DNA of 34,561 nucleotides from Prochlorothrix hollandica PCC 9006 = CALU 1027 (GTDB taxonomy: Bacteria; Cyanobacteriota; Cyanobacteriia; Prochlorotrichales; Prochlorotrichaceae): positions 1,379,446 to 1,414,006 of the forward strand of contig NZ_KB235933.1 in NCBI RefSeq assembly GCF_000332315.1, given 5' to 3'. Within the stretch, counting starts at the first letter, position 1. Each line of letters begins with the position of its first letter. This document shows, in pieces, positions 2,778 to 25,780 of the stretch. The translations under genes and the position numbers were made by a program. Below the pieces are notes generated by a model that was given only the letters and a program-made list of their open reading frames with translations, ran no database searches and had not been told where the DNA came from.

Positions 2778-2787
2778 GCAGGCTTTG

Positions 2788-3696
2788 ATGATGAAACTTT
2801 TATTAAATGTCCATGTTATTGATTTTCAAAATATTGGGGATCTCTGTTCTACGCCCTTAGACTATTTTCCCTTTAGGGGTTATGAACAGCAACGGGTTGA
2901 TATTCGGGAACTCGATACCTGGCTAGCCACCGACGGCGATCGCCTCCAAGACTATGAACAAGTGCGCATCATTGTGGGGGGCGGTGGACTCTTATTTAAA
3001 CGCTTTTTGCCCGCCTTTCAACAGCTACAAACCCTGGCACCCAAAGCCCAACTGATCAGTTGGGGCATTGGCCAACAACTGTATAAAACCCAGGGCGATC
3101 GCGCCAGCTTTTACCAACAGTTTGACTATCAACCCTATCTCCAGGGCTTTCGCTTCAGCAGCATTCGCGACGTTGACCACCCCAACCCCCAGTATCCCTG
3201 GGTGCCCTGCGCCAGTTGCCTCCACCCCGCCTTCGATCAACCCCGCCCCCTGCGCCATCAAGTCGTCGTCTTTTCCCACAAAAAGTTTCAACTGCACTGG
3301 CGCAATCTGCCCCGCCTCACCCACGAGACCCAAGACTTTAATACCATTCTCGATTTCCTCGCCTCCGGGGAAACCATCCTGACCAGTTCCTACCATGGAG
3401 CCTATTGGGGAACCCTGTTGGGGCGGAAGGTGTTGGCCTTTCCCTTCAGCAGTAAATTTCACACCCTGAAACATCGCCCCAGCCTTTATCCCGTCGATCG
3501 CTGGCGAACCCGTCAAGTGCTGGGGCGATCGTGGCCACCCCGCTGGCCCTGGCAGCGCCCCAGTCCCCAGCCTGCCTTAACTTGTTCCATCTATCGCTGG
3601 CAAGAGTGGGTGGCCGATATTCCCACCTACCCCCACGCCCTCCAAGAGTGCCGCGATCGCAACCACTGGTATTACCGCCAGGTGATGGAATCTTAA
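2788..3696 (+). CDS. polysaccharide pyruvyl transferase-like family protein
   Basis: This protein of about 302 residues resembles the polysaccharide pyruvyl transferase family, whose members add ketal-pyruvate to exopolysaccharides or wall glycans. Supporting motifs are the N-terminal NIGDLCSTPLDYFPF stretch, a glycine-rich IIVGGGGLLF loop near residue 75, ISWGIGQ near 105, and the C-terminal SSYHGAYWGTLLGRKV motif with SYHG near residue 210. The first in-frame codon is TTG at 2785, followed by ATG at 2788 and ATG at 2791. I use 2788, and the Shine-Dalgarno sequence is weak (CAGG). The upstream region is a MITE-like repeat. The substrate is unknown, and a glycosyltransferase-like role cannot be excluded. 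Confidence 0.7.
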   Translation: MMKLLLNVHVIDFQNIGDLCSTPLDYFPFRGYEQQRVDIRELDTWLATDGDRLQDYEQVRIIVGGGGLLFKRFLPAFQQLQTLAPKAQLISWGIGQQLYKTQGDRASFYQQFDYQPYLQGFRFSSIRDVDHPNPQYPWVPCASCLHPAFDQPRPLRHQVVVFSHKKFQLHWRNLPRLTHETQDFNTILDFLASGETILTSSYHGAYWGTLLGRKVLAFPFSSKFHTLKHRPSLYPVDRWRTRQVLGRSWPPRWPWQRPSPQPALTCSIYRWQEWVADIPTYPHALQECRDRNHWYYRQVMES

Positions 3697-3737
3697 GCCT
3701 GCCCCGGCACGGGGAATCTTAAGCCTGCCCCGGCACG
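3687..3737. repeat. 26-bp tandem duplication spanning a stop codon
   Basis: Nearly two copies of a 26-bp unit beginning GGAATCTTAAGCCTGCCCC are present. The TAA inside the first copy is the stop codon of the pyruvyl-transferase-like gene. The second copy fills most of the short gap before the convergent SLH gene. Confidence 0.9.
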
Positions 3738-3752
3738 CGGATAACTGGCACC

Positions 3753-5605: not shown

Positions 5606-5863
5606 ATGATTTTCACCCTTTTAGCCGCTGTACCCACCACCGTTGCCTGGAGTCCCAAGGTTGCCGCCGTCATGATTGCCTGCAATGTCCTGGCCATTGC
5701 CTTTGGCAAGCTGTCCATTGAAGTCCCCGACGCTCCCCCTGCCACCCCGGCCCCCAGCATGTTCGGCGGTTTTGGGATTCCTGCGGTGATCGCCACCACC
5801 TGCTTTGGTCATATCCTTGGGGCGGGTGCCATTTTAGGGCTAAGTTCCTTAGGCGCACTGTAG
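5606..5863 (+). CDS. psaK: photosystem I reaction center subunit PsaK
   Basis: This 85-residue thylakoid membrane protein has the two-helix layout of PsaK, a peripheral antenna-binding subunit of photosystem I. The N-terminal segment VPTTVAWSPKVAAVMIACNV leads into helix 1. A loop with FGKLSIEVPDAPPATPAPSM is followed by FGGFGIPAVIATTCFGHILG and GAGAILGLSSLGAL in helix 2. SWSP/AWSP, MIxCNxxAIxxG and GHxxGxGxILGL are family hallmarks. The ATG is preceded by GGGAG at good spacing. Its paralogue lies 1.6 kb away on the other strand. The TAG stop codon begins a 13-bp tandem duplication. Confidence 0.95.
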   Translation: MIFTLLAAVPTTVAWSPKVAAVMIACNVLAIAFGKLSIEVPDAPPATPAPSMFGGFGIPAVIATTCFGHILGAGAILGLSSLGAL

Positions 5864-5886
5864 CATCTGTGGCTAGCATCTGTGCC
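5861..5886. repeat. 13-bp tandem duplication beginning at the psaK stop codon
   Basis: Two units, TAGCATCTGTGGC and TAGCATCTGTGCC, begin with the psaK TAG stop. The same word (TAGCATCTGTGGCC) forms the array at the end of the radical SAM gene at 14193. Confidence 0.9.
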
Positions 5887-5895
5887 TAGCGTTTT

Positions 5896-6490: not shown

Positions 6491-6561
6491 GGGAACATGA
6501 GCCTTTCAGAAGTTTTGTCAGTCAAGCAGGCTATCCCGTTGTCTGGATGGCCTTTCAACTT

Positions 6562-6602
6562 TTTTACTGCTGTTTTACTGCTGTTTTACTGCTGTTTTAC
6601 TG
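6562..6602. repeat. 11-bp tandem repeat, 3.7 copies
   Basis: TTTTACTGCTG is repeated three times plus a partial copy. It lies just before the presumed terminator of the pentapeptide gene. Confidence 0.93.
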
Positions 6603-6605
6603 AAA

Positions 6606-6660
6606 CAAAAGAGGCCAAGAAGCAGGGGAAATGATCACCCCTACACCTTGGCCTTTTCTG
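6606..6660 (-). terminator. putative terminator of the pentapeptide-repeat gene
   Basis: The segment AAAAGAGGCCAAG on the left pairs with CTTGGCCTTTT on the right, with one bulge. Read on the minus strand, the stem ends in a T-rich stretch 45-100 nt after the pentapeptide gene stop. It could act in both directions. Confidence 0.5.
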
Positions 6661-6704
6661 TTTTGAGTGAAATTAATTAAGGGGCATTTAGCCCTTGGGG
6701 AAGC

Positions 6705-7277
6705 TTAACAGCCTTCGTAGCTCACCTTCCCGTCTGGTAAAACCGTGTTACACAGCTTGACCCCCGACAAGTTGGCATTGATCAAGTTGGCATCCCGCAG
6801 ATAGGTCATGGATAAATCAGCCCCAGTGAGGTTCGCATCCCGCAGATTGGCCTTATTGAGGTTAGTGCTGCGGAGGGTTGCGTAGCTGAGATCAGCCCCC
6901 TTGAGGTTGGCTTCATAGAGATTGGCCTGGGTCAGGTCTGCGTTGACCAACTGAGACGTTTCTAGGCTGATTTGTTTGAGGTAGGAATATTTGAGATTGG
7001 TGCCGCTGAGGTTGGCATTATCAAAGACGGCTTCAGCGAGGTTAGCCGTCTGGAGGTTAGAGCCTTCTAAGTTGACACCACTAAAGTTGGCCCGCTTCAG
7101 GGAAATATTGCGTAGGTTGCAATCGACGCAGGCTCGTTCTGCCTTAAGGATAGACAGATTCCGAATGGCTTCCGCCGGTACGGGTTCAAACCGCAGTTGG
7201 GCTAAGGCGGGTTCTATGGGAAATGCAGCCCAAAAGAGGGCGATCGCAACAAAAACAAAGGTAACAATCCTAGACAC
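6705..7277 (-). CDS. exported pentapeptide-repeat protein
   Basis: This 190-residue protein has an N-terminal signal peptide (hydrophobic FVFVAIALFWAAF, with a cleavage-like site after EPALA, about residue 26). From about residue 50 it consists almost entirely of A(N/D)LxX pentapeptide repeats such as ANFSG, ANLAE, ANLSG, ADLTQ, ANLYE and ADLSY. These would build a right-handed quadrilateral beta-helix. The ERACVDCNL pair of cysteines just before the first coil resembles thylakoid-lumen or periplasmic members of the family, where a disulphide may form. The final GVKLCNTVLPDGKVSYEGC adds two more cysteines. It lies between two psaK genes, but no functional link is established. The molecular role is unknown. 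Confidence 0.85.
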   Translation of the reverse strand: MSRIVTFVFVAIALFWAAFPIEPALAQLRFEPVPAEAIRNLSILKAERACVDCNLRNISLKRANFSGVNLEGSNLQTANLAEAVFDNANLSGTNLKYSYLKQISLETSQLVNADLTQANLYEANLKGADLSYATLRSTNLNKANLRDANLTGADLSMTYLRDANLINANLSGVKLCNTVLPDGKVSYEGC

Positions 7278-7309
7278 AAATGAGCCTCAATTATCATCAT
7301 TATCAATAA

Positions 7310-7407
7310 GGCACCTCGATTAATCGGTAGCGCAGCTTCGCCGTGCTACTTCAAACAACGCAAATCCGTGCCTTGGGTCATCAGGATTTGAATTTTTCGA
7401 GGTGCCC
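7310..7407 (+). mobile_element. 98-bp MITE-like element, family 1, copy A (degenerate)
   Basis: The terminal inverted repeats are GGCACCTCGA and TCGAGGTGCCC. The central GC-rich hairpin (GCGCAGCTTCGCCGTGCT) is decayed compared with other copies. It lies upstream of the pentapeptide gene and may separate it from its promoter. Confidence 0.75.
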
Positions 7408-7430
7408 ATTACTGCATTGGCACAGGGGCA

Positions 7431-7456
7431 AGAATTTGGATTTTTCGAGGTGCCCC
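7431..7456 (+). repeat. family 1 element, right-end fragment
   Basis: The right-end fragment AATTTGGATTTTTCGAGGTG plus CCCC matches the end of the family 1 element. It lies 24 bp beyond copy A and just past the stop of the second psaK. Confidence 0.7.
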
Positions 7457-7475
7457 ATAGGGGATCTAGATAATG

Positions 7476-7736
7476 TTACAACAGGCCCATGGTTGCAAGG
7501 CCGAGAATGGTGCCCATGCCAATAATGTGGCCGAGGCTGGTGGTGGCTAAGAGGCCAGCCAAATTCATGCCCCCGAATAAGTCAGAGGGGGGTAATTCTG
7601 GGCCTTCCAGGGGTCCACCCATGGTTTGCTTGCCAATGAAGATGGCGAGTACATTACAGAGAATCATGACGATCGCCACCGCAGGACTCCAGGCCGCAGT
7701 GATGGGTATAGCGCTCGCGAGCAGGATAATAGACAT
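7476..7736 (-). CDS. psaK: photosystem I reaction center subunit PsaK (second copy)
   Basis: This 86-residue PsaK paralogue has helix 1 AIPITAAWSPAVAIVMILCNVLAIFIG, loop KQTMGGPLEGPELPPSDLFGG and helix 2 LAGLLATTSLGHIIGMGTILGLATMG. I start at the ATG at 7736 (MSIILLASAIP). It has a GAGGA Shine-Dalgarno about 12 nt upstream and aligns with the N-terminus of the first copy. The longer frame to 7793 would add 19 residues unlike PsaK. The two proteins differ considerably in loop and helix 2, so they are diverged paralogues and not a recent duplication. In cyanobacteria with PsaK1/PsaK2 one form is often light-regulated, but which is which cannot be told here. Confidence 0.93.
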   Translation of the reverse strand: MSIILLASAIPITAAWSPAVAIVMILCNVLAIFIGKQTMGGPLEGPELPPSDLFGGMNLAGLLATTSLGHIIGMGTILGLATMGLL

Positions 7737-7878
7737 GATTATAGGTTCCTCAAAGGTTGGATAAGGGGGAATAGGCAGATCATCCACAGTCAAGGGGTTA
7801 ATCCAGACCGTAGGATGCCAACTTGGGCCTTTGTCCTATTCCGTGAACCGGTTGATAGACAGATTTATGGTCTCTGGT

Positions 7879-7977
7879 GGGCACCTCGATTAATTGTCGC
7901 GGGCGGCTTCGCCGTCCGCCACAACTCCTAGTTTTACGTGGGACACTGGGCGAAAATTTGGATTTTTCGAGGTGCCC
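7879..7977 (+). mobile_element. 99-bp MITE-like element, family 1, copy B
   Basis: It begins GGGCACCTCGA and ends TCGAGGTGCCC, a perfect 11-bp terminal inverted repeat. The internal hairpin is GGGCGGCTTCGCCGTCCGCC. The flanks share TGGT on both sides, a possible 4-bp target duplication. It lies upstream of psaK copy 2. Confidence 0.8.
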
Positions 7978-7979
7978 TG

Positions 7980-8069
7980 GTGAAAGGAAAAAGGGTGAGA
8001 GGAAAAAGGGTGAGAGGAAAAAGAGTGAAAGGAAAAAGGGTGAGAGGAAAAAGAGTGAAAGGAAAACGT
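7980..8069. repeat. 15-bp tandem repeat, 6 copies
   Basis: Six units of GTGAAAGGAAAAAGG or GTGAGAGGAAAAAGR directly follow MITE copy B. Units alternate between two variants, suggesting partial expansion as dimers. The remaining bases to the tnpB element (8070-8162) show nothing recognisable. Confidence 0.95.
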
Positions 8070-8162
8070 GCATCATCCCCACTGGGACAATCCTGCAGTC
8101 CTGGTACTGGGTTAGAGAGGGTTGCCCCTTGTTTTTCCTGGGACTGGGGGGATGTGGCCCTA

Positions 8163-8203
8163 TTTGACATGCTCTCCGACCTAAAGGTGCGGGGATTCTC
8201 CGG
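8163..8203 (-). ncRNA. right-end hairpin, putative 3' part of the tnpB omega RNA
   Basis: Immediately after the tnpB stop the minus strand can fold CCCCGCACCT / AGGTCGGAG, then reads GCATGTCAAAT to the element end. In studied TnpB systems the guide RNA (omega RNA) covers the tnpB 3' end and the right end, with the guide lying just outside the element. The RNA itself is inferred by analogy. Confidence 0.4.
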
Positions 8204-9424
8204 CTAGGCGAACAGTCCAAGCTGTTCGCTGTACGGCTGGCTAGACAAAGCAGTCGGATTGCCAGACATCCTGGTCTTACGCCCGTTCTTTGTCCATTTA
8301 GAGTCTTGGGTTAGCCCCAACCCAGACTTTTCGACATTTTTGGCGGCATTACCATCTCTATCATGTTCGGTTCCGCAACTCACACAGAGGATGGAACGAA
8401 CCGATAGAGCAACCTTGCCCCACCGAAAGCCACAATCAGAACAGATCTGACTGGTTGGCTCCCACCGACTGATGATCCTGACCTCTCGATCATTAACCCT
8501 GTTGGCCTTGGCCTCACACATAGTTCGTGCGGTGCCCCAACCCTGCTGACTGATGGCCCGTGCCAACTTCCGATGGCCAAGCATATTCTTCACCGCCAGA
8601 TCCTCCAACACCACCACTTGATTTTCGTGGATTAGCTGGGTCGTGGTCTTGTGCAGAAAGTCTTTTCGGATATTGGCCGTTTTTAGCTTTAGCTTTGCAA
8701 GGCGCAGCCTAGTCTTTTCGCGACGCTTAGACCCTTTAACTTGGCGGGCCAGCTTACGCTGAAACCGTCGCGTCTTTCGGTCTAACCGATTATATCGAGG
8801 GGATTCTACCCGATCACCTGTGCTGAGAAAGGCAAAGGTTTTGATGCCTAGATCTACCCCAATCGAGGGCCGTAGTGGCTCAATGTTGATGGGACCAATC
8901 TCCACGACAAAGCTGGCATGGTATTGTCCAGCCGTGTTACGGATAATGGTCACAGAGCTAGGTTCAGAGGGCAGTGGCCTTGACCACTTCACCTTGAAGC
9001 GGCCTAACTTGGCTAGTTCAAGCTTATTGCCCTTGAGGGAGAATCCCGTCCGAACAAACCGTGCCGACTGTTGGTTCAGCTTCTTTTTGAACCGAGGGAA
9101 GCCCACCTTTGGCCCTTTTCGTTTACCGCTACGGCTCTCAAAAAAGTTCTTGAAGGCAGCACCTAAATCCTGAACCGACTGCTGCAAGGGCACGACTGAC
9201 ACATCGGCCAACCATTCCCGTTCAGCCGTCTTTTTGGCCTGAGTAATCACCAGCTTTTGCAGTTCAGCATTGCTAGGCCATTTCTCGCCCTGCGGCACTG
9301 ACCGCACAATCGCCAGCGCGTCGTTGTACACAACTCGACAACACCCAAAAAGCTGATTCAGCCCTTTGACCTGTTGCGGTGTCGGATAAATTCGGTACTG
9401 GTATCGTACTTTCATGCTAACCAT
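8204..9424 (-). CDS. tnpB: TnpB RNA-guided nuclease homologue (IS200/IS605, OrfB family)
   Basis: This intact 406-residue TnpB is the ancestor-type protein of Cas12 and an omega-RNA-guided DNA endonuclease in characterised members. The N-terminal helix-turn-helix-like domain is YQYRIYPTPQQVKGLNQLFGCCR. RuvC motif I is GVDLGIKTFAF (D191), motif II VVLEDLAVKNM (E274), the zinc ribbon C328-xx-C331 and C347-xx-C350, and motif III HDRDGNAAKN (D355/D357). All catalytic acidic residues are present, so it is potentially active. The start is ATG at 9424, and a second ATG three codons later is also possible. It is transcribed away from the small gene at 9459. Confidence 0.95.
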   Translation of the reverse strand: MVSMKVRYQYRIYPTPQQVKGLNQLFGCCRVVYNDALAIVRSVPQGEKWPSNAELQKLVITQAKKTAEREWLADVSVVPLQQSVQDLGAAFKNFFESRSGKRKGPKVGFPRFKKKLNQQSARFVRTGFSLKGNKLELAKLGRFKVKWSRPLPSEPSSVTIIRNTAGQYHASFVVEIGPINIEPLRPSIGVDLGIKTFAFLSTGDRVESPRYNRLDRKTRRFQRKLARQVKGSKRREKTRLRLAKLKLKTANIRKDFLHKTTTQLIHENQVVVLEDLAVKNMLGHRKLARAISQQGWGTARTMCEAKANRVNDREVRIISRWEPTSQICSDCGFRWGKVALSVRSILCVSCGTEHDRDGNAAKNVEKSGLGLTQDSKWTKNGRKTRMSGNPTALSSQPYSEQLGLFA

Positions 9425-9458
9425 GATAGCATAGATGGATAGACGATGGGTAGGTACA

Positions 9459-9599
9459 ATGGCGAAAGAAACGCTCAGTTTAAGGGTGTCCGGCGCTAGG
9501 TTGGCAAAGCTTAGGCGGATTGCAAAACAGAGAGAGAAGACGATGACCCAGCTTGTGGAAGACTGGATAGATCGGTTGCAGGAAGAAAAGCCGTCCTAG
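9459..9599 (+). CDS. 46-residue ribbon-helix-helix-like small protein inside the tnpB element
   Basis: This short gene starts 34 nt from the tnpB start in the opposite direction. The protein begins MAKETLSLRVSGARLAKL and continues RRIAKQREKTMTQLVEDWI, then ends DRLQEEKPS. A short beta strand (TLSLRVS) followed by two helices separated by a turn (EKTMTQ) is the layout of CopG/Arc/MetJ-type DNA-binding antitoxins and repressors. An identical protein is encoded in the second element copy at 33887-34027. Its last codons overlap the left-end hairpin. I infer a regulator of the shared divergent promoter region or a maintenance protein of the element. Function is unproven. Confidence 0.75.
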   Translation: MAKETLSLRVSGARLAKLRRIAKQREKTMTQLVEDWIDRLQEEKPS

Positions 9600-9805
9600 A
9601 AGGACGGGGCTTTAGACCCAGATTTTCGGTAACGGATGGTTAACCTAAGATTTTAAAAATAGGCTAATGGCTAGGCGATCGAGATCACCCATCCTTGACC
9701 TTCCAATTGTAATCTTTCATTATTCAACCCATTCTTGTATCGAATGCGTAGTAATACTTCACATTTTGTAGGAGAAGCCCTGGGTTCTGCGTTATCAAAA
9801 CAGCT

Positions 9806-9840
9806 TACAGCAGTCCTAAATGGGTCGTGTGGTGTGCGAC
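9806..9840 (+). mobile_element. family 2 MITE fragment (left half)
   Basis: TACAGCAGTCCTAAATGGGT and the following GTGTGGTGTG match the first 35 bp of family 2. The sequence then breaks off a few bases before a family 1 element. The rest of the gap 9634-9805 shows no gene. Confidence 0.75.
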
Positions 9841-9843
9841 TGT

Positions 9844-9933
9844 GATCAATTGGGTTGGGCGGCTTCGCCGCCCGCCACAACCCTGATTCTTACATGGGTC
9901 ACTGGGCGAAAATTTAGATTTTTCGAGGTGGCC
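9844..9933 (+). mobile_element. family 1 MITE, copy C (left end lost)
   Basis: The hairpin GGGCGGCTTCGCCGCCCGCC and the right end TTTTTCGAGGTGGCC are clear, but the left GGGCACCTCGA is missing. It follows a truncated family 2 element directly, as if one repeat had cut or recombined into the other. Its last base forms part of the stop codon of the metal-sensor gene. Confidence 0.72.
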
Positions 9934-10358
9934 TATAAAAACTGATCAAGGGCTGCTTTTAATTCAGCTAACTCCATTTCAATGTCCCCCGCATTGGCGG
10001 CCCGCGCGACGCACTCCGTTAGATGCTCATCCAAAATAATCCGAGCCACTTTGTCCAAGGCTCCCCGCACCGCCGCCACCTGCACCAAGACCTCTGGACA
10101 GGCCCGGTTTTCTTCTACCATGGTCTTAATGCCCCGAATATGGCCCTCAATGCGGGAGAGGCGATTGAGGAGACGCTTTTGGGATTCGGGGTCGTGGATG
10201 TGAACATGGCTGTGGTCTTGGGGGGGGTGATGGCCCTGGGACCGGGGAGGGCGGGACTCTGGGGGGCTGGCCACGGGGGTCAGTTTGGGAAACGCTAGGG
10301 GGGAATCGGCATTAGACTGGGGGGAGGGCGGGTTGGCGCGGGACGGGGAAGAAGCCAT
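9933..10358 (-). CDS. CsoR/RcnR-family metal-sensing repressor (InrS-like)
   Basis: This 141-residue protein has a C-terminal DUF156 four-helix domain typical of CsoR/RcnR copper, nickel or cobalt sensors. The region RLLNRLSRIEGHIRGIKTMVEENRACPE starts near residue 62. The fingerprint residues C87, H112 and C116 (ACPE, DEHLTEC) are all present. The N-terminal 58 residues are Pro/Ser-rich and hold a His cluster (GHH...DHSHVHIHD, 42-56), as in the cyanobacterial nickel sensor InrS and other histidine-extended members. Such proteins release DNA on metal binding and control an efflux gene. No efflux gene is adjacent here, and the divergent neighbour is a radical SAM gene. The specific metal cannot be decided. 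Confidence 0.88.
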   Translation of the reverse strand: MASSPSRANPPSPQSNADSPLAFPKLTPVASPPESRPPRSQGHHPPQDHSHVHIHDPESQKRLLNRLSRIEGHIRGIKTMVEENRACPEVLVQVAAVRGALDKVARIILDEHLTECVARAANAGDIEMELAELKAALDQFL

Positions 10359-10454
10359 AGTTCACAGGGTTCTGGGGTTAGGTAGCCCCCATCTTACCGC
10401 CCCTGTTTCCGGAGCGTTTCGGTATTTCCGAATCGTCTCAATGCCTGCCAGAAC

Positions 10455-10482
10455 CCCACACGACCCATTGCGGACTGCTGTA
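10455..10482 (-). mobile_element. family 2 MITE fragment
   Basis: CCCACACGACCC through GGACTGCTGTA matches one terminus of family 2 (compare 12276-12302). It lies between the divergent metal-sensor and radical SAM genes. The remainder of this intergenic region (10359-10536) should contain both promoters, but none is clear. Confidence 0.7.
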
Positions 10483-10519
10483 GTTCCCATTATTTCTGGT
10501 TAGTTCCCATTATTTCTGG
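10481..10519. repeat. 20-bp tandem duplication before the radical SAM gene
   Basis: TAGTTCCCATTATTTCTGG(T) occurs twice in direct tandem, ending 17 nt before the ATG. The first copy starts exactly where the family 2 fragment ends. Confidence 0.9.
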
Positions 10520-10536
10520 ATTTATTGCTGCTTTTT

Positions 10537-12192
10537 ATGGCCCGATCGCCCTCCACCCTGCCCCCAGCCCCCTCTACAGCCCCCAGTTTTGCCCCGGAAC
10601 AATTGCTGTTCACCCCGGCCACGCCCCAACCCCAGGCCGTGCCCCTGATCTTTGCCTTTCCCAATCAATACAGCGTTGGCATTACCAGTTTGGGCTATCA
10701 GGGGGTTTGGGCAACCTTGGCCCAGCGATCGGATCTCCAGGTCAGCCGTTTGTTTACGGATCTCCAGGAATCCCTGCCCTCGGAGCCAGAGTTAGTGGGC
10801 TTTTCTTTTTCCTGGGAACTGGACTACGGTCATATTTTTGATCTGCTGGAGCAGTTGCGGATCCCCCTCCAGAGCCGCGATCGCACCGCTGCCCATCCCC
10901 TGGTGTTTGGGGGAGGACCCGTGCTGACGGCCAACCCGGAACCCTTTGCCGATTTCTTTGATCTGGTGCTGTTGGGGGATGGGGAGGTGGTGTTGGATGC
11001 CTTTATTGACGGCTACCAGGGGGTGCGGGGGTTGCCGCGATCGCAGCAATTGCGGCAATTAGCCCAGATTCCCGGTCTCTATGTGCCCAGTTTGTACCAG
11101 GTGACCTATGGGGATCCCCAGGGGGCGATCGCCCGCATTGAGCCGCTGGATGCCAGCATTCCCGCCACCGTCACCAAACAAACCTACCGGGGCAATGTTC
11201 TCTCCGCTTCCCAGGTGGTTACGCCCCAGGCCGCTTGGGAAAACATTTACATGGTGGAGGTGGTGCGCAGTTGCCCGGAACTGTGCCGCTTTTGTTTGGC
11301 CAGTTACCTGACCTTGCCCTTTCGCACCGCTGATCTGGGGGATTCCTTGATTCCGGCCATCGATCGGGGGCTGGCCATCACCCAACGCCTGGGTCTCTTG
11401 GGGGCATCGGTCACCCAACATCCCCAGTTCCCAGAACTGCTGCACCACCTCAGCCAGCCCGCCTACGATGGCATTCGCCTCAGCATTGCCTCGGTGCGCA
11501 CCAACACCGTCACGGAAACCCTGGCCCGCACCCTCAGCCGCCGGGGAACCCAGTCCCTCACCATTGCGGTGGAAAGCGGTTCGGAGCGGGTGCGGCGCAT
11601 TGTCAATAAAAAGCTAGAAACGGCGGAGATTATCGCGGCGGCTCAACAGGCCAAGGCTGGCGGACTGCGGGGGCTGAAACTCTATGGCATGGTGGGCATT
11701 CCGGGGGAAACGGCGGCGGATGTGGAGGCAACGGTGGCCCTGATGACCCACCTCAAACAAGCAGCCCCCGGTTTGCGGCTCACCCTGGGTTGTAGCACCT
11801 TTGTCCCCAAGGCCCATACCCCGTTCCAGTGGCAGGGGGTGAACCCAGCGGCCCAAAAACGGCTGACGTTGCTGCAAAAACAGCTTCGCCCCCAGGGGAT
11901 CGACTTCCGCCCGGAAAGCTATAACTGGTCGGTGATCCAAGCGCTGTTATCCCGGGGCGATCGTCGCCTTGCCCCCCTGTTGTTGCAGGTGCGCCACTAT
12001 GGGGATTCCTTGGGCAGCTACCGCCGGGGCTTCAAAACTCTCCAGGATCAACTGCCGCCCCTCTCGTTTTATGTCCATGACACCTGGGACGTTGATCAGG
12101 TTTTACCCTGGCACCACCTCCAGGGTCCCCTACCCCTGGCCACGCTCCAAAAACACCAAGCCGAAGCCCTCACCCCTCAATCCTGTTCGTAG
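10537..12192 (+). CDS. radical SAM protein with N-terminal B12-binding-like domain
   Basis: This is a 551-residue iron-sulphur enzyme of the radical SAM superfamily. The cluster motif C246-xxx-C250-xx-C253 (SCPELCRFC) binds the 4Fe-4S centre that cleaves S-adenosylmethionine. The preceding about 160 residues resemble a cobalamin-binding Rossmann fold: VGFSFSWELDYGHIFDLLEQL, then VFGGGPVLTANPEPFADFFD and LLGDGE. After the barrel (IAVESGSERVRRIVNKKL, GLKLYGMVGIPGET, LGCSTFVPKAHTPFQW) comes an approximately 110-residue tail. The overall plan resembles TIGR03960-like proteins. I use the ATG at 10537; a TTG at 10525 would add four residues. The substrate is unknown. It is separate from the next radical SAM gene by 410 bp of repeats. 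Confidence 0.85.
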   Translation: MARSPSTLPPAPSTAPSFAPEQLLFTPATPQPQAVPLIFAFPNQYSVGITSLGYQGVWATLAQRSDLQVSRLFTDLQESLPSEPELVGFSFSWELDYGHIFDLLEQLRIPLQSRDRTAAHPLVFGGGPVLTANPEPFADFFDLVLLGDGEVVLDAFIDGYQGVRGLPRSQQLRQLAQIPGLYVPSLYQVTYGDPQGAIARIEPLDASIPATVTKQTYRGNVLSASQVVTPQAAWENIYMVEVVRSCPELCRFCLASYLTLPFRTADLGDSLIPAIDRGLAITQRLGLLGASVTQHPQFPELLHHLSQPAYDGIRLSIASVRTNTVTETLARTLSRRGTQSLTIAVESGSERVRRIVNKKLETAEIIAAAQQAKAGGLRGLKLYGMVGIPGETAADVEATVALMTHLKQAAPGLRLTLGCSTFVPKAHTPFQWQGVNPAAQKRLTLLQKQLRPQGIDFRPESYNWSVIQALLSRGDRRLAPLLLQVRHYGDSLGSYRRGFKTLQDQLPPLSFYVHDTWDVDQVLPWHHLQGPLPLATLQKHQAEALTPQSCS

Positions 12193-12199
12193 TGCTCAA

Positions 12200-12302
12200 T
12201 ACAGCAACCCTAAATCAGTTGTAGGCATCTCGATGGCTGAAACCCTTGGTGTGGTGTGCCCCCTCCGGGGGCACACCACACGACCCATTTCGGACTGCTG
12301 TA
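12200..12302 (-). mobile_element. 103-bp family 2 MITE, copy 2
   Basis: Ends are TACAGCAACCC and GGACTGCTGTA. The central perfect hairpin GTGTGGTGTGCCCC / GGGGCACACCACAC separates the two arms. It starts 8 nt after the stop of the first radical SAM gene and could act as its terminator or an RNA stabiliser. Between this element and the next (12303-12467) I see no gene. Confidence 0.85.
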
Positions 12303-12467
12303 CTACGAACCTGGGGCTGGAGATTACCCCTATGGTGGGTTCTGGGGTGCTGTCAGTGTTCCCACGGGGATCCCTGGGATGCTAGCGTCAACCTTGCGAA
12401 AATTCCTCGTTTATACTGGGTTGTAATGCCTTAAATTTTCTTAAATTCTCAATTCTGAATCCCCTGG

Positions 12468-12568
12468 GGGCACCTCGCAGAATCCAAATTTTCGCCCAGT
12501 GACTCACGCAAGAATCAGGGTTGGGGGTGGGCAGCGAAGCCACCCACCCCCCTTAATGGAGGTACCCC
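12468..12568 (-). mobile_element. 101-bp family 1 MITE, copy D
   Basis: It begins GGGCACCTCG and reads AATCCAAATTTTCGCCCAGT, a reverse-oriented copy of family 1. The hairpin GGGTGGGCAGCGAAGCCACCC and a decayed right end (GGAGGTACCCC) follow. The element ends 34 nt before the second radical SAM gene. Confidence 0.75.
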
Positions 12569-12602
12569 TGGGCGATCGCTAACCCCCTAAAACTTGAATC
12601 CT

Positions 12603-14195
12603 ATGACCAACGTTCTGCTGAACTACCCCCTATTTCCCAAAACCTTTTGGTCCTATGAAAAGATCTTAGAACTCATTGACCGGAAGGTGTTGCTGCCCCC
12701 CCTGGGCTTAATTACCGTCGCCGCCATCCTGCCCCAAGACTGGAACTTTAAGCTGGTGGATCGCAACATTCGATCGGTCACCCCAGAGGAATGGCAATGG
12801 GCGGATCTGGTGATTATTTCCGCCATGATTGTCCAGAAAGAGGATATTTTAGAGCAAATCAAACTGGCAAAACAGTACGGCAAACCCGTAGCCGTGGGGG
12901 GACCCTATCCCACCTCCATGCCCGAAGAAATGCGATCGGCGGGGGTGGATTATCTGATTTTGGATGAAGGGGAATTGACCCTACCCCAATTTGTGGCGGC
13001 GTGGGAGCGGGGCGATCGCCAAGGGGAATTTACGGCCAATGGGGAAAAACCCGATGTGAGCCACACCCCCATTCCCCGCTACGATTTGCTGGACTTCAAA
13101 GCCTATGATTCCATGTCGGTGCAGTTTTCCAGGGGCTGTCCCTTCCAGTGTGAATTCTGCGACATTATTGTGCTCTATGGCCGCAAACCTCGCACGAAAA
13201 CGCCCCAACAACTGATCGCAGAATTGCAAGCCCTCTATGATTTGGGCTGGCGGGGGGGGGTGTTTATGGTGGATGACAATTTTATTGGCAATAAACGCAA
13301 TGTCAAACTCTTCCTCCAAGATCTAAAAATCTGGCAAGAAGATCATGGCTATCCCTTCCGTTTCGACACAGAAGCCTCCCTGGATTTAGCCCAAGATCAG
13401 GAAATGATTGATCTGATGTTGGCCTGTAATTTTGCAGCGGTCTTCATGGGCATTGAAACCCCTGACACCGACAGCTTGCAACTGACCCTTAAATACCAGA
13501 ATATGCGATCGCCCCTGCTGGAATCCATCGATACAGTGACGCGATCGGGGTTGCGGGTGATTGCGGGCTTTATTATCGGGTTCGATGGCGAGAAACCGGG
13601 GGCGGGGCAACGGATTGTGGACTTTGCGGAGGCTACGGGCATTCCCACCACCACCTTTGCCATGTTGCAGGCACTGCCCAATACGGCCCTGTGGCATCGC
13701 CTCGAAAAAGAGGGCCGTTTACGGGTGGCCAATGGCAATATTAACCAAACCACCTTAATGAACTTTGAACCCACCCGACCCGTGGAAGAGATTGCCCAAG
13801 AATATATCGATGCCTTTGGCAAACTCTATGAACCCATGCAATATCTCGATCGGGTTTACAACTATTTCCTGAAATTGGGGGCACCCCGCGTTAAACCGCC
13901 GTTGCAATGGCCGGAGTGGGTTGTGGTTAAAGCGTTGGCGATCGTCTGTTGGCGACAGGGTGTTGTGCGCTATACCCGCTGGAAGTTCTGGCACCATTTA
14001 GTCATGATTCTGATCAAGAATCCGGCGGTGGCGGAACAGTATTTAGCCCTCTGTAGCCACAATGAGCATTTCATGGAATATCGGGAGATTGTCCGCCAGC
14101 AAATCGAGGCCCAGCTAGAGGAATACAAACGCCTGGAAGCCCTCAATGGCGATCGGGTGTCCCAGCCCGCAGCCTCCCTCCAATCTGTGGCTTAG
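12603..14195 (+). CDS. B12-binding radical SAM protein with DUF4070-type C-terminus
   Basis: This 530-residue enzyme has an N-terminal cobalamin-binding domain (MTNVLLNYPLFPKTFWSYEK, VDRN near 52-55, VAVGGPYPT near 96-104, LILDEGE near 118-124). The radical SAM motif is C179-xxx-C183-xx-C186 (GCPFQCEFC). Further hallmarks are FMVDDNFIGNKRNVK near 225, FMGIETPD near 280 and a C-terminal region of the DUF4070 type (ALPNTALWHRLEKEGRL). This architecture is shared by the hopanoid methylases HpnP/HpnR and many unassigned cyanobacterial paralogues. Sequence reading alone does not separate them, so no symbol is given. The ATG at 12603 is used; the upstream TTG at 12594 is less likely. The stop codon opens a 14-bp tandem array. 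Confidence 0.88.
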   Translation: MTNVLLNYPLFPKTFWSYEKILELIDRKVLLPPLGLITVAAILPQDWNFKLVDRNIRSVTPEEWQWADLVIISAMIVQKEDILEQIKLAKQYGKPVAVGGPYPTSMPEEMRSAGVDYLILDEGELTLPQFVAAWERGDRQGEFTANGEKPDVSHTPIPRYDLLDFKAYDSMSVQFSRGCPFQCEFCDIIVLYGRKPRTKTPQQLIAELQALYDLGWRGGVFMVDDNFIGNKRNVKLFLQDLKIWQEDHGYPFRFDTEASLDLAQDQEMIDLMLACNFAAVFMGIETPDTDSLQLTLKYQNMRSPLLESIDTVTRSGLRVIAGFIIGFDGEKPGAGQRIVDFAEATGIPTTTFAMLQALPNTALWHRLEKEGRLRVANGNINQTTLMNFEPTRPVEEIAQEYIDAFGKLYEPMQYLDRVYNYFLKLGAPRVKPPLQWPEWVVVKALAIVCWRQGVVRYTRWKFWHHLVMILIKNPAVAEQYLALCSHNEHFMEYREIVRQQIEAQLEEYKRLEALNGDRVSQPAASLQSVA

Positions 14196-14248
14196 CATCG
14201 GTGGCCTAGCATCGGTGGCCTAGCATCTGTGGCCTAGCATCTGTGGCC
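14193..14248. repeat. 14-bp tandem repeat, 4 copies, starting at a stop codon
   Basis: Four units follow one another: TAGCATCGGTGGCC twice, then TAGCATCTGTGGCC twice. The first TAG is the stop codon of the radical SAM gene. The same word follows the stop codon of psaK at 5861. Confidence 0.96.
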
Positions 14249-14282
14249 TAGCTAACTGACTGACAAAACGTGCCAGAACCCC

Positions 14283-14565
14283 GTAATTATTCAGGGGGTC
14301 ACGGGAGAATGAGGGTTTCAGGCTTCAGAAAACAGACCTGAGGCGATTGGAGAGGGTCTATTTCACCTGGGCAGATTCCCCGATTTTGGTAGGGGCAATC
14401 CCCCCGTGGTTGCCCCGGCTGTGGGTCGCGAAGAGGGTCGGCACGGGGGCAAGAACCCTACCCGAGGTCAAGGGTGCCCCAGTAAATTGAACCCCTTTGA
14501 GACGGTCCTGACCGGCGATCGTCGGGCTGAAACCCTACTAACTTCGTCCCCCCCTGAATAGTTAC
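14283..14565 (+). mobile_element. 283-bp MITE-like element, family 3, copy 2, with 9-bp target duplication
   Basis: Terminal inverted repeats are GTAATTATTCAGGGGG and CCCCCCTGAATAGTTAC. The nonamer CAGAACCCC directly flanks both sides (14274-14282 and 14566-14574), strong evidence for transposition. It is almost the reverse complement of 2269-2576 but has a single copy of the internal hairpin unit. It contains no gene. Confidence 0.85.
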
Positions 14566-14586
14566 CAGAACCCCACACCTCCAACA

Positions 14587-14672
14587 GGGTCAGGTTTCCT
14601 GACCCCTACATTGACGAAGCCCCATGCGGTATCGTTGACCAAAACCGGTTAGGGGCGGGGTTTTCCCGCCCC
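14587..14672. other. two strong intergenic hairpins
   Basis: GGGTCAGG-TTT-CCTGACCC (14587-14605) and GGGGCGGG/CCCGCCCC with a 5-nt loop (14652-14672) are perfect stems of 8 bp. They may be dispersed hairpin repeats or terminators. The stretch 14673-14887 shows no convincing gene. Confidence 0.5.
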
Positions 14673-14887
14673 ATGCAGCATTTTTGGGAGCATCCCGCTG
14701 TAGGTGGGTACACGGTAGCGCCCCAAGGGGAGGGATTGAGGGTGAGGGTCTTCGGACAACAGGATTGCTACAGCAACCAGACGGTGGATGCCAGCGCCGA
14801 GGTAGCCCCTAAGGTTAGGCTAGTCAGGTTAGGGCCAGGGTGGGGCCGATCGCCCCCGGAGGTTCCGCGAAGGTTATAAGTTTGTTA

Positions 14888-14990
14888 TGCAGCAACCCTA
14901 AATCAGTTGTAAGGATCTCGACGGCTGAAACCCTTGGTGTGGTGTGCCCCCGGAGGGGGCACACCACACGACCCATTTAGGACTGCTGTG
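14888..14990 (-). mobile_element. 103-bp family 2 MITE, copy 3
   Basis: Ends are TGCAGCAACCC and GGACTGCTGTG, so the outermost bases are slightly decayed. The centre GTGTGGTGTGCCCC / GGGGGCACACCACAC is an intact hairpin. It is followed after 4 nt by the duplicated flank of a family 1 element. Confidence 0.83.
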
Positions 14991-15012
14991 TCTGTTTTGT
15001 TATATATCTTTA

Positions 15013-15111
15013 GGGCACCTCGAAAAATTCAAATTTCCGTCCAGTGACCCACGCAAGAATCAGGGTTATGGCGGGTGGCGAAGCCGCCCGCCACAATTAA
15101 TCGAGGTGCCC
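15013..15111 (-). mobile_element. 99-bp family 1 MITE, copy E, flanked by an 18-bp direct repeat
   Basis: Perfect ends GGGCACCTCGA and TCGAGGTGCCC enclose the hairpin GGCGGGTGGCGAAGCCGCCC. The 18-bp sequence TTTTGTTATATATCTTTA is present exactly at both borders (14995-15012 and 15112-15129). This reveals the precise element boundaries and suggests insertion with a long target duplication, or insertion between pre-existing repeats. Confidence 0.9.
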
Positions 15112-15168
15112 TTTTGTTATATATCTTTAAAGTAGAGGGAGATGTTAGATGTAGATGTCTTGAGGTAA

Positions 15169-15204
15169 AAGTCCAGACAGAAGTCCAGACAGAAGTCCAG
15201 GCAG
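15169..15204. repeat. 12-bp tandem repeat, 3 copies
   Basis: AAGTCCAGACAG is repeated three times, with one A-to-G change in the last copy. It lies about 115 nt upstream of clpB. Confidence 0.92.
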
Positions 15205-15317
15205 ATGTTTGGATCAATAGCTTTGCCCAAGATGCCCCCCGTTCCTGATCGGGGACTAGGGCCGATCGCCCGCCCTCCCGCTGCCCCGTAAACCCTCATC
15301 CCCTGCTGCCAGCGTCC

Positions 15318-18062
15318 ATGCAACCCTCTGATCCCAACAAATTCACCGAAAAAGCCTGGGAAGCCATCGTTACCTCCCAGGAAGTGGTCCGCCGTTTCCG
15401 CCAGCAACAGTTGGAAGTGGAGCATGTGATGATCGCCCTCCTGGAGGGCCAGGATGGCACCGCCGCCACCTTGTTGACCCAAGGGGAAGTGGATCCCGTG
15501 GTCCTCTTACAACAGGTGGAAGACTTTGCCCGCCGCCAAAGCCGGGGCACCGGGGGTACCCAACTGTTCCTGGGGCGGGGTCTGGATGAACTGCTGGACA
15601 AAGCAGACCAGGCGCGGCAACTGTGGCAGGACGACCACATTACCGTGGAGCATCTGCTTATGGGCTTTGTGGAGGACGATCGCCTGGGGCGGCGCATCTG
15701 CCAGGGCTATAACCTGGATGCCCAGACCCTGCAAACCCTGATCAAAACCCGCCGCGCCAACCTGGCCAAGGTGCGGGAGCCGCGCATGGAAGCCAGCCCC
15801 AGCGCCCTGGAAACCTATGGCCGCGATCTGACGGAATTGGCGGAAGAAGGCAAGTTAGATCCCGTCATTGGGCGGGATGATGAAATTCGGCGGGTGGTGC
15901 AGGTGCTGTCGCGGCGCACCAAAAATAATCCGGTGCTGATTGGGGAGCCGGGGGTGGGCAAAACGGCGATCGCCGAAGGACTGGCCCAACGCATCATTAA
16001 GGGGGATGTGCCGGAATCCCTCAAAAAACGGCGGCTGATTACCCTGGACATGGGATCCGTCATTGCCGGGGCCAAATACCGGGGCGAATTTGAGGATCGG
16101 CTGCGATCGGTCATGCGGGAAGTCATCGACTCCGATGGTCAGATTGTGCTGTTCATTGACGAGTTGCATACGGTGGTGGGGGCCGGGGGCGGTCAGCAGG
16201 GTTCAGCCATGGATGCGGGCAATCTGTTGAAACCGATGTTGGCCCGGGGAGAGTTGCGCTGCATTGGGGCCACCACCCTCGATGAGTTCCGCAAGTTCAT
16301 CGAAAAGGACCCAGCCCTAGAGCGGCGCTTCCAGCAGGTGATGGTCAACCAGCCCTCCGTTGAAGATACGGTGTCCATTTTGCGGGGTCTCAAGGATCGC
16401 TATGAAGTCCACCACGGGGTCAAAATTCTGGACTCGGCCCTGGTGGCGGCGGCGAGTTTATCCAACCGCTACATCAGCGATCGTTGCCTCCCCGATAAAG
16501 CCATTGATTTGGTGGACGAAGCAGCGGCCAAACTGAAAATGGAAATCACGTCCCAACCGGAAGAGTTGGAGATTTTGGGTCGCCGCATTAATCAACTCAA
16601 GATGGAACAAATTTCCCTGGAAGCCGAGGACGGAAAAAGCCTTAGCCTGGGGGAAACGCCCTTTAAAGCCTCCCAGGATCGCCTCGATCGCCTCACCCAG
16701 GAAATTGCAAGCCTAAAGACCAAATATGACAGTCTCCAAAGTCAGTGGGAAGCCGAAAAAACCCTCCTCGATTCCATTAAGCACATCAAAGAAGAAGAAG
16801 AACAATTGCGGGTCTTAATTGACCAGGCGGAGCGGGACGGGGATCTCAATAAAGCCGCCCAATTAAAGTATGGACGCATGGCGACCCTGGAACAGGAACA
16901 GGAGGAGAAAGAAGCCCATCTCCTGGCCATGCAAGATAGCGGCAAAACCCTGCTGCGGGAAGAGGTCACCGATGGGGACATTGCCGAAATTGTCGGTCGC
17001 TGGACCGGAATTCCCGTCAACCGCCTCTTGGAAACCGAGCGCCAAAAACTGCTGCATTTAGAGACCTATTTACACAAGCGGGTCATTGGCCAACGGGAAG
17101 CGGTGGAAGCCGTAGCCTCCGCCATTCGTCGAGCGCGGGCGGGCATGAAAGAAGTGGGACGACCGATCGGATCCTTTATTTTCATGGGACCCTCTGGGGT
17201 GGGCAAAACCGAGTTGGCCCGCACCCTCTCGGAAGCCCTGTTTGACAGCGAAGATGCCCTCATTCGCATTGACATGTCGGAATACATGGAAAAACACGCA
17301 GTTGCCCGGTTAGTGGGGGCACCTCCCGGCTATGTGGGCTATGAGGAAGGGGGCCAACTGTCGGAAGCCGTGCGCCGCAAACCCTACTCGGTCATTCTCT
17401 TTGATGAGGTGGAAAAGGCCCACAGTGATGTTTTTAATATCCTGTTGCAAGTGTTGGACGATGGGCGCATTACCGATTCCCAAGGGCGCACCGTTGACTT
17501 TTGCAATACGGTGATCATCATGACCAGCAACATCGGCAGTGGCATTATTTTAGAGTTGGCCCAAAAGCTGGTGGATCAATATGGGGAAACAGAAGCCCAA
17601 TTCCAAGAGATGCGCCTCAAGGTGATGGAAGCCCTGAGCAAAGCCTTCCGACCGGAATTCCTCAACCGCATTGATGATCCCATTTTGTTTCACCCCCTCT
17701 CCCGCAGTGAGATTTCTCAAATTGTGGGCCTGCAAGTGAAGCGCCTCCAAGGGTTATTGCAGGAACAGCGGATTAAGATTGAACTGACCGCAGCGGCCCA
17801 AGATTATCTGGCCCAAGCCGGGTATGAACCCAGTTATGGGGCGCGTCCCCTCAAGCGGGTCATTCAGCGGGAAGTGGAAAACCCCGTGGCCACCAAGTTA
17901 CTGGAAAATGCCTTTGTGGAGGGGGATACGATCCTGGTGACCGTCAAAAACGATCAACTCTGCTTTACCAAGGCGGGTGCTGAGGGAGTCACCGAGGGGC
18001 AGTCAGACCCTGACCCGGAACCCGCAGCCGTGGCCGTGGCGGTGGAGGTCATGGAGCCATAA
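15318..18062 (+). CDS. clpB: ATP-dependent chaperone ClpB (Hsp104-type disaggregase)
   Basis: This 914-residue AAA+ hexameric disaggregase rescues aggregated proteins together with DnaK. The N-domain (two Clp-N repeats, about 6-145) includes [14 protein letters not shown] and [13 protein letters not shown]-1 has Walker A GEPGVGKT (209-216), Walker [10 protein letters not shown] and the YRGEFEDR pore region. The coiled-coil middle domain is about 405-530, which distinguishes ClpB from ClpA and ClpC. AAA-2 has GPSGVGKT (624-631), [10 protein letters not shown], the pore loop GYVGYEEGG and sensor-2 GARPLKR. It lacks the IGF/IGL loop for ClpP, consistent with ClpB. The Ala/Val-rich tail after residue 890 is unusual. 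The start ATG at 15318 gives the expected N-terminus. No HSP-type promoter element was confidently seen. Confidence 0.97.
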
Positions 18063-18165
18063 ACGCTGGGGAGAGCACCGGTAGCAAATCCATGGGGCGC
18101 GATCGCCAGGTTCAAGCTACCCCTAACCCCGACCAGGAGGGAAACCGGAGCGCTTTCTCTTTCTT

Positions 18166-18200
18166 ATGGGTAACCGCCATGGGTAACCGCCATGGGTAAC
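18166..18200. repeat. 13-bp tandem repeat, 2.7 copies
   Basis: ATGGGTAACCGCC occurs twice, followed by a partial ATGGGTAAC. It lies in the short gap between the convergent clpB and TPR genes, about 100 nt after the clpB stop. Confidence 0.92.
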
Positions 18201-18293
18201 TCCCTTAGGGGTACCCGGTCAGTCCATCGGCAAGAACGACCCTCAAGCGTTACCCTGGATCCGGATTCTGCAAGGGAGTTCATGAACCTGAGC

Positions 18294-19373
18294 TTAATTG
18301 TCATGGGCATAGCGGGTGACAATGCCGCTGGTGTTGACGCGATCGAGAATGGGTAGACCGCCATAGTTCAAAATATCCTCATACTGGTTACTGGAGGCGG
18401 GGATCGCCCGGTTCGCGCAGTCTTCCCAGCGGCCCTGGGCTTCCTGGGGGCGATCGGTTTGGTCTAGCAATGCGGCCAAATAGCAATAGGCCATCCCTTT
18501 CCCCGGCCAAGGAGCGGGGTTGATGTCCGTTAAGGCAATGGCACTGCGCAGAAGTTGTTCCGATCGACGCTGTAAGTCCCCCACGGGATCAGCGGACTGG
18601 ATCATACCCACTTCCCGCAGTTCCGCCACACTGATGGGGTTTCTGGCAATCAAATCCGCCTGTTGCACATAGACAAAACCCAGATGGGTCAAAATACTAG
18701 CCTTTAGCTCCGGTTGAAGCTGGGCCTGGGATAACGCAAACTGGAAATATAACTCAGCAGCCTCTAAACCCTGCAAAGACGTATCCTGGCGCATGATCGC
18801 CCGCCCCATGCCACTAAACGCTGCCGGTTCACCGTAGGGCAGCGCTGTCAGATAAAACTTTTGGGCCGCCTCATGATCCCTAATTTTTTCAAAGTAGTTA
18901 CCCAGGGCAATGGTGACCCGCACATCATTGGGATCAAAGTTCAGGGCTTGGTGAAAACTGGCCACCGCTGAGGCGGTTTGACCCGCATTATAGAATCGCT
19001 GCCCTTGGCGATAATAGTAATCCCCCAGCCGGGGTAGGCTTTGGTTAACACCATAGGTAGCGGCCAAGGTGACGGCGGCAAAGGCACAGGTGACTTCCGC
19101 CTGGTAAGCGGGGGCAATCCTCAAACTCGTGAGTACCAGTTTGGCACCCTGTCGCCCGCGATCGGTCAACGCCCCACCGGTCACAAACACCAACCCTGCC
19201 CCCTGGCCGATGGTCCCAAAGGTTTGCAGCAGATCCCATTGTCCTTGGGAAAATGCCTGAACAGTATCCGTGGCAAAGGTTCCCCCCAGCACTAGACAAC
19301 CGACGGTGATCGTATTCCAAATCCAGTCAAAGTCAGTCCACTTACGGTGGGGTGGGGGATTGGTCTCAGTCAT
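18294..19373 (-). CDS. TPR-repeat membrane protein of unknown function
   Basis: This 359-residue protein starts with a short cytoplasmic segment and two or three hydrophobic stretches (TITVGCLVLGGTFAT near 20, GAGLVFVTGGAL near 60, VTCAFAAVTLAATYG near 95). Tetratricopeptide-like helices follow from about residue 117: YYYRQGQRFYNAGQTASAVASFHQALNFDPNDVRVTIALGNYF is the clearest unit, then weaker ones around YLTALPYGEPAAFSGMG and LYFQFALSQ. TPR domains mediate protein contacts, so a scaffold or assembly role is possible but unproven. It converges on clpB. The region upstream carries a repeat cluster interrupted by an insertion element. Confidence 0.75.
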   Translation of the reverse strand: MTETNPPPHRKWTDFDWIWNTITVGCLVLGGTFATDTVQAFSQGQWDLLQTFGTIGQGAGLVFVTGGALTDRGRQGAKLVLTSLRIAPAYQAEVTCAFAAVTLAATYGVNQSLPRLGDYYYRQGQRFYNAGQTASAVASFHQALNFDPNDVRVTIALGNYFEKIRDHEAAQKFYLTALPYGEPAAFSGMGRAIMRQDTSLQGLEAAELYFQFALSQAQLQPELKASILTHLGFVYVQQADLIARNPISVAELREVGMIQSADPVGDLQRRSEQLLRSAIALTDINPAPWPGKGMAYCYLAALLDQTDRPQEAQGRWEDCANRAIPASSNQYEDILNYGGLPILDRVNTSGIVTRYAHDN

Positions 19374-19414
19374 AGGATCAATAGAGGGTGAGGAATGACA
19401 ATACTAACCTTGGC

Positions 19415-19443
19415 AGTAACGTTAAAAGTAACGTTAAAGTAAC
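19415..19443. repeat. tandem AGTAACGTT motifs upstream of the TPR gene
   Basis: AGTAACGTT occurs at 19415 and 19427. A third copy at 19438 is split by the 134-bp element and resumes at 19586. Joined, the third copy reads AGTAAC-GTT. The self-complementary AACGTT core at about 11-12-bp spacing could be an operator-like array for the TPR gene, whose start is about 40 nt away. Confidence 0.6.
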
Positions 19444-19577
19444 GGCTCTCTAGGGATCACGCCGAGAACCGTACAGTAAATGATACCATTTGAATGGAGG
19501 GTCATTATTGAAGTCTTGGCTGTATGAGGCTTTCATAGATCATAATCCAAACTTATCAGCCTCATTCCCAGAGAGCC
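19444..19577. mobile_element. 134-bp MITE with ISL3-like ends and 8-bp target duplication
   Basis: The terminal inverted repeats are GGCTCTCTAGGGA and TCCCAGAGAGCC. The flanking octamer AAAGTAAC is duplicated (19436-19443 and 19578-19585). GGCTCT-type ends plus 8-bp duplications are characteristic of the ISL3 family, so this is probably a non-autonomous ISL3 derivative. It contains no gene. It splits one unit of the AGTAACGTT array. Confidence 0.8.
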
Positions 19578-19620
19578 AAAGTAACGTTGACATGGGAAAG
19601 ACTCCAGCAACCTTCCTAAC

Positions 19621-19659
19621 CTGTCCCTAGCTACCTGTCCCTAGCTTACCTGTCCCCTG
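19621..19659. repeat. 14/15-bp tandem repeat spanning the stop codon of the first Rpn gene
   Basis: On the minus strand GGGACAGGTAAGCTA, GGGACAGGTAGCTA and GGGACAGGTTAGG follow one another. The TAA of the first unit is the stop codon of the gene ending at 19646, and the repeat duplicates its last two sense codons plus stop. Confidence 0.88.
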
Positions 19660-20494
19660 CTGCATCTGCCGCCGCCAGCGCCTCCACTTCCGCCAGCGTT
19701 AGCCCCGTCTTTTCCGCAATCACCGCCGCTGGTAACAGTCCCCGCAGCGATCGGGCAATCTCCCGACTCCGCTGCTGCTGCCCTTCCAGGAGCGCCCGCC
19801 GCACCACATTGCGACCGTCTTCTACCCTAAAGGCTTGCTTTTCCAGTAGATCAAATTCCTCCACACTCAAGTTGACGGTCTCGGCAATGTGAAACGCATG
19901 ATCTAGATTGGGACTGGAGTCCAAAGGGGGTGGGATTTCCTCTAGATCACCGGCTTGCTGGAGGAAAAATGTCCAGAGATCCGTGAGGGTCTCCAAATCG
20001 CCTAGGGACTTGGCAAACTTGGGTAATTCTACAAAGACCAGTTCTATATCATCGCCGTAGGGTAGGCCGTCTTCCCGATCGAGCAACTGATAATGGGAGA
20101 GAAAGCGATCGCGTTCGGGAAACAGCACAAAGTCCGTAATGGTCAGGCCAATGACTGGACGTAGGCGACTGTAGCCCTGACCCCGTTGCAGTTGCAGGGA
20201 GTAGGCTTTGGCTACGTTGTACAACACCCGTTTATTAAAATCTAGGGGGTTCAACACCTGCATTTCAATCAACACCATTGTCCCGTCCGCTAGCTGAGCT
20301 TTCACGTCTAGAAAGGTGTCTTTTACGCCCTGAAGCTGGGGCGCTTGGTAGGGGTCGAGAATTTCTAAGTCCTGGACGATCGGTTGGCTATCATAGACCA
20401 AGGCATTAAGAAACTCAATCAGAATAGGCTTGCTTTCCGCTGAACCAAAGATTTTTTTGAAGGCAAAGTCAGTTTTAGGGTCAAGAAAGCGCAT
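19646..20494 (-). CDS. Rpn family PD-(D/E)XK nuclease / putative transposase, array copy 1
   Basis: This 282-residue protein belongs to the recombination-promoting nuclease (Rpn/YhgA-like, PDDEXK_2) group. The N-terminus MRFLDPKTDFAFKKIFG is the family signature. The catalytic core is visible as D63 in FLDVKA and E77-x-Q79 in LIEMQ, the E-x-Q variant of PD-(D/E)XK. Residues up to about 245 are almost identical to the three copies upstream. This copy has no EEGR repeat: EGQQQRSREIARSL links directly to a C-terminal motif, AAVIAEKTGLTLAEVEALAA, that looks like a small helix-turn-helix. The Shine-Dalgarno AGAGGGT precedes the ATG, as in all copies. Whether it acts in recombination, defence or gene conversion is unknown. 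Confidence 0.9.
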   Translation of the reverse strand: MRFLDPKTDFAFKKIFGSAESKPILIEFLNALVYDSQPIVQDLEILDPYQAPQLQGVKDTFLDVKAQLADGTMVLIEMQVLNPLDFNKRVLYNVAKAYSLQLQRGQGYSRLRPVIGLTITDFVLFPERDRFLSHYQLLDREDGLPYGDDIELVFVELPKFAKSLGDLETLTDLWTFFLQQAGDLEEIPPPLDSSPNLDHAFHIAETVNLSVEEFDLLEKQAFRVEDGRNVVRRALLEGQQQRSREIARSLRGLLPAAVIAEKTGLTLAEVEALAAADAAGDR

Positions 20495-25696: not shown

Positions 25697-25780
25697 ACCC
25701 GTCGTTAAGGACCCGTCGTTAAGGACCCGTCGTTAAGGACCCGTCGTTAAGGACCCGTCGTTAAGGACCCGTCGTTAAGG
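25697..25780. repeat. 14-bp tandem repeat, 6 copies, spanning the murG stop codon
   Basis: ACCCGTCGTTAAGG is repeated six times. The murG reading frame enters the array and is stopped by the TAA of a unit. Because 14 is not a multiple of 3, the units are read in successive frames, which limits how far the tail can extend. Confidence 0.96.

Follow-up and report, generated by a model that had tools for sequence, protein, structure and literature searches.

The window analysed here is a stretch of 34,561 bp (C1:1379446-1414006) from a genome of 5.65 Mb assembled as 13 contigs, and its cyanobacterial assignment follows from psaK and from class-level relatives, which included no genome of its own genus or family. 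Tandem arrays in the window were detected with TRF and their sequences were also read directly. Five of them lie at the ends of genes:

3687..3741, plus strand: 26-bp array, 2.1 copies; unit 1 holds the stop TAA (3694-3696) of the ORF 2785-3696
5861..5890, plus strand: 13-bp array, 2.3 copies; it begins with the TAG that terminates psaK (5606-5863)
14183..14252, plus strand: 14-bp array, 5.0 copies; unit 1 holds the stop TAG (14193-14195) of a B12-binding/radical SAM/DUF4070 gene (12594-14195)
19619..19656, minus strand: 14/15-bp array, 2.6 copies; a PDDEXK_2 family gene (19646-20494) has its stop TAA (19648-19646) in unit 1, in the minus-strand reading
25697..25780, minus strand: 14-bp array, 6.0 copies; at the 3' end of murG (25747-26901), with the stop in unit 3

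The original prediction placed the stop inside the first or an early unit at five genes. All five arrays do contain the stop, and at four genes it lies in unit 1; murG departs from this, with its stop in unit 3. The further claim that the psaK and radical SAM arrays (5861-5890 and 14183-14252, 8.3 kb apart) share one word was borne out, as TAGCATCTGTGGC is common to both. This 13-mer has exactly three exact occurrences in the 5.65 Mb genome, all within these two arrays, and independent origin in the two seems unlikely. The pair was removed by the flank filter of our unit-sharing analysis; a common 10-mer, ATGGCGATCG, is present in both flanks.

The window also carries repeats of other kinds:

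6022-6295: 54-bp unit, 5.1 copies, between psaK and 6705-7277, with the internal inverted repeats GGTCGAGTTGCACTCGACC and AGCCGACTACAAGTCGGCT
20761-20836 and 22838-22952: in-frame 12-bp CTTCGCGGCCTT arrays of the PDDEXK_2 cluster (6.3 and 9.6 copies), in two of the three further ORFs after the window's PDDEXK_2 cluster gene

Genome-wide counts were made on stretches of three contigs, 1.97 Mb after exclusion of the window, which was the source of the hypothesis. The 1,255 genes in this sample were called by our own hexamer model and are not a curated annotation; the model missed, for example, a TnpB-like gene at 27220 of the window. TRF returned 1,296 tandem arrays with units of 10-30 bp, or 659 per Mb, about 30-fold above the 22 per Mb obtained in a third-order Markov simulation at a TRF score of at least 40, and at a score of at least 50 the figures were 3 simulated vs 520 real. 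The load is unusually high also among cyanobacteria, roughly 2-12 times that of five others sampled (39-51 arrays per 80 kb here, compared with 4-25 in their 80-kb samples). Most units are 11-16 bp long. They are mostly private to their locus and their base composition equals the background, as expected of neutral slippage that takes its units from local sequence. Sixty intergenic pairs of arrays share a 12-mer without having similar flanks, compared with 5-12 in shuffles, and several of these pairs represent one dispersed 28-bp palindromic family (GAGCGACTGAAGTCGCTACTACAAACCT and variants), which is also found in tandem at several loci. Example sites of this family are:

C1:748497, 948613, 1179313, 1310660, 1425649 and 1510188: 28-bp palindromic repeat

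Three candidate explanations concerning the arrays were rejected. Stop words are not enriched in the units, where stop trinucleotides occur at a frequency of 0.51 compared with 0.49 in the background. Sharing of units between neighbouring arrays, as a sign of transfer, showed no distance clustering apart from two pairs within 5 kb. Genes for MutS, the ExoVII large subunit and RecJ were all found, so loss of these repair functions does not explain the load.

In the 2.0 Mb sample 91 arrays overlap a stop codon, two of them being counted once for each of two convergent genes. With arrays placed uniformly in the spacers (60 runs), about 24 overlaps were expected (range 15-37). This null model allowed an overhang of one unit at stops, and it is generous to the claim since the spacers are inflated by uncalled genes. 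We therefore made a stricter comparison, in which, for the same genes, the stop-spanning position was set against the three unit lengths that follow it downstream. Here 59 arrays were found at the stop and 34, 32 and 28 at the successive downstream positions. Under pure neutrality, arrays should be as dense immediately before the stop as immediately after it, against an observed ratio of 1.88 (bootstrap CI 1.31-2.54). With fixed 14-nt bins and non-triplet arrays, the ratio was 1.51 (p=0.05) in the first 1.2 Mb, window removed, and 1.87 (p=0.03) in a separate 0.8 Mb. Thus the claim that arrays overlap stops more often than their intergenic location predicts held up by both measures and in two separate samples. 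The genome-wide count, which had been put forward as the check that could refute it, did not return overlaps at the expected level but a 1.9-fold excess (CI 1.3-2.5) over the positions immediately downstream. The window itself was a high draw, as stop overlaps make up 5 of its 16 intergenic or stop-located arrays, vs 10.6% genome-wide (P about 0.02).

The excess is the same for triplet and non-triplet arrays and is limited to the stop-spanning position. Spurious gene calls were considered as its source and rejected: the ratio was 2.06 (p=0.001) for genes with a coding score of at least 60 and 0.71 for the weakest calls. When genes were divided by their downstream neighbour, those followed by a gene on the same strand had 42 arrays at the stop vs 16, 16 and 18 downstream, and convergent pairs had 17 at the stop vs 17, 15 and 10; the contrast gave p=0.04 in Fisher's test, but is post hoc, having been chosen after the data were seen. 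We regard the excess of about two-fold at stop-spanning positions as real. As to its cause, our best guess is that insertions meet the least constraint in the strip that separates the stop from the first 3' element, although such a simple constraint account does not predict that the excess should come mostly from genes that precede a same-strand gene. In this lineage duplications could instead arise, or be kept, preferentially across stops through a process linked to translation termination, about 2-fold over adjacent DNA and about 2.5-fold before a same-strand gene; we regard this as unlikely.

The original prediction had further suggested a mechanism acting at gene 3' ends, such as slippage at terminators or at sites of replication-transcription conflict, and this was not supported by the counts. 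Array boundaries are equally dense in the 55 nt upstream of starts and downstream of stops, and are depleted at the start codon itself. Array density in spacers is lowest between convergent genes (1.35 per kb, compared with 1.41 in co-directional and 1.62 in divergent spacers), and the enrichment in convergent pairs expected of replication/transcription-conflict hotspots was thus not found. In positions 1-20000 of the window terminator-like sites were no commoner than in shuffles, and none was called inside the four stop arrays there. The two-fold stop-spanning excess seen in two separate samples would fit a mutational hotspot at the 3' ends of genes, through terminator slippage, transcription-replication conflict or R-loops formed after the last ribosome. 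The excess occurs, however, only at the stop-spanning position and is less marked for convergent pairs, and together with the equal density upstream of starts this makes such a hotspot improbable.

In 48 of the 54 non-triplet stop arrays the stop lies in the first unit, while its position within that unit is evenly spread (KS p=0.50). The even spread indicates that no motif is tied to the stop, and a unit phase tied to the stop, which we had considered, was accordingly rejected. To follow the ancestry of the stops we compared orthologs. All 13 psaK orthologs recovered terminate at the same residue. Orthologs in two relatives were available for 21 stop-array genes; taking the smallest displacement, the stop was not displaced in 9 and was displaced by at most 5 codons in 18; the corresponding numbers for 12 control genes were 6 and 12 (p=0.53). 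Moreover, nearly identical PDDEXK_2 paralogs without an array end at the same codon position, as read from the printed sequences. (There are 14 PDDEXK_2 genes, with 94-100% protein identity, in tandem clusters on C1 and C9, loci L197-L208.) These comparisons show that the stops of array genes are mostly ancestral, and the first-unit bias together with the ortholog and paralog stop positions indicates that the native stop usually lies within the duplicated segment. The idea that the last codons and the stop are duplicated outward into the intergenic DNA is supported.

These data also bear on a different reading, in which arrays near gene ends stop the frames that enter them, given that one stop word in a non-triplet unit is enough to close every frame after at most three units. 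The same logic was stated for TAACTGA repeats (MacGregor 2015, PMC4679880), and three of the 21 genes, with stops displaced by 7-14 codons, could be of this kind. MurG behaves in this way: its last codons are encoded by its array, its orthologs end near residue 370-375 of the 384 found here, and in silico collapse of the array to one unit gives a protein of 378 aa, ending at a TAA just after the unit. MurG is the clear case in which the array extended into the reading frame, which is now terminated in a later unit. As a general explanation, however, frames captured at random entry phase would place only 21 stops in the first unit, as against the 48 of 54 observed, and most stops are at their ancestral position; we consider this reading unlikely.

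The arrays had been proposed to provide back-up stop codons, and this part of the original prediction was not supported. With a non-triplet unit the second copy of the stop is out of frame, and 54 of the 91 stop arrays are of this type. Among their genes only 13% have the next in-frame stop within 10 codons, which is no closer than usual, since the value is 32% for genes without a stop array; in-frame enrichment of additional stops, as expected under selection, was thus not observed in non-triplet arrays. In the 37 arrays with triplet units the stop does recur in frame, and another in-frame stop follows within 10 codons at 86% of their genes, as must be. Yet triplet units are not favoured at stops, where they make up 37 of 91 arrays compared with 51 of 143 in the downstream 55 nt (p=0.49). 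At three of the five window genes the array itself supplies the next in-frame stop, while the arrays at psaK and at 3696 contain no further one in frame, so that back-up stops do not belong to the observation itself. A survey of additional stop codons likewise found no selection for them in eubacteria (PMC6764699). That arrays are retained since repeated stops catch readthrough ribosomes is therefore highly improbable.

Taken together, our results show the arrays and their first-unit bias, the ancestral position of the stops and the lack of back-up stops. We consider it likely, with a probability of roughly three in four, that the stop arrays are ordinary short tandem duplications in a duplication-rich genome, some of which span the native stop and are tolerated. 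The duplications would originate from replication slippage, and some of the duplicated segments would span a stop by chance. The first copy would then preserve the original last codons and the stop, leaving the protein unchanged and the duplication tolerated, while a duplication with a more upstream start would in most cases cause a frameshift. Purifying selection would act as a filter, and the finding of the stop in the first unit would reflect this filter, as it is the first copy that keeps the gene intact. A minority of arrays may reach into the reading frame, which would then end at a later unit.

Abundant short tandem arrays outside genes are a known feature of some cyanobacteria, as in the STRR repeats. 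The long simple sequence repeats described by Mrazek (cited in PMC4679880) are another such case. The repeats of these two types have units of 1-11 bp or are fixed heptamers, whereas the present units are typically 11-16 bp. The closest parallel is found in the TAACTGA direct repeats known from marine Beggiatoaceae and from some Cyanobacteria, where the repeat overlaps the stop of the upstream gene in 13 genes and provides stops in all frames, and which in the view of the author must end reading frames (MacGregor 2015, PMC4679880). Both are short direct repeats in intergenic DNA that can overlap the stop of the upstream gene (here 91 times in 2.0 Mb). TAACTGA is, however, one fixed heptamer found mostly before starts, while the units here are 10-30 bp and largely locus-private, with boundaries depleted at starts. 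TAACTGA is the unit of none of the five window arrays; a single copy follows the array at 14183-14252. Tandem or additional stop codons (Ho and Hurst 2019, PMC6764699) resemble the present arrays in that further stop words come after the first stop, but here the extra stops result incidentally from duplication, lie mostly out of frame and show no sign of selection. We regard the arrays as one more instance of tandem duplication at the ends of genes and not as a new system.

This separates a tempting functional story, of spare stops and 3'-end slippage, from a filter effect that the counts support. Such a filter effect should appear in any genome rich in tandem duplications. If the two-fold excess holds in comparisons of strains, stop-spanning arrays would offer a simple natural assay of the change in duplication rate or constraint from one side of a stop codon to the other.
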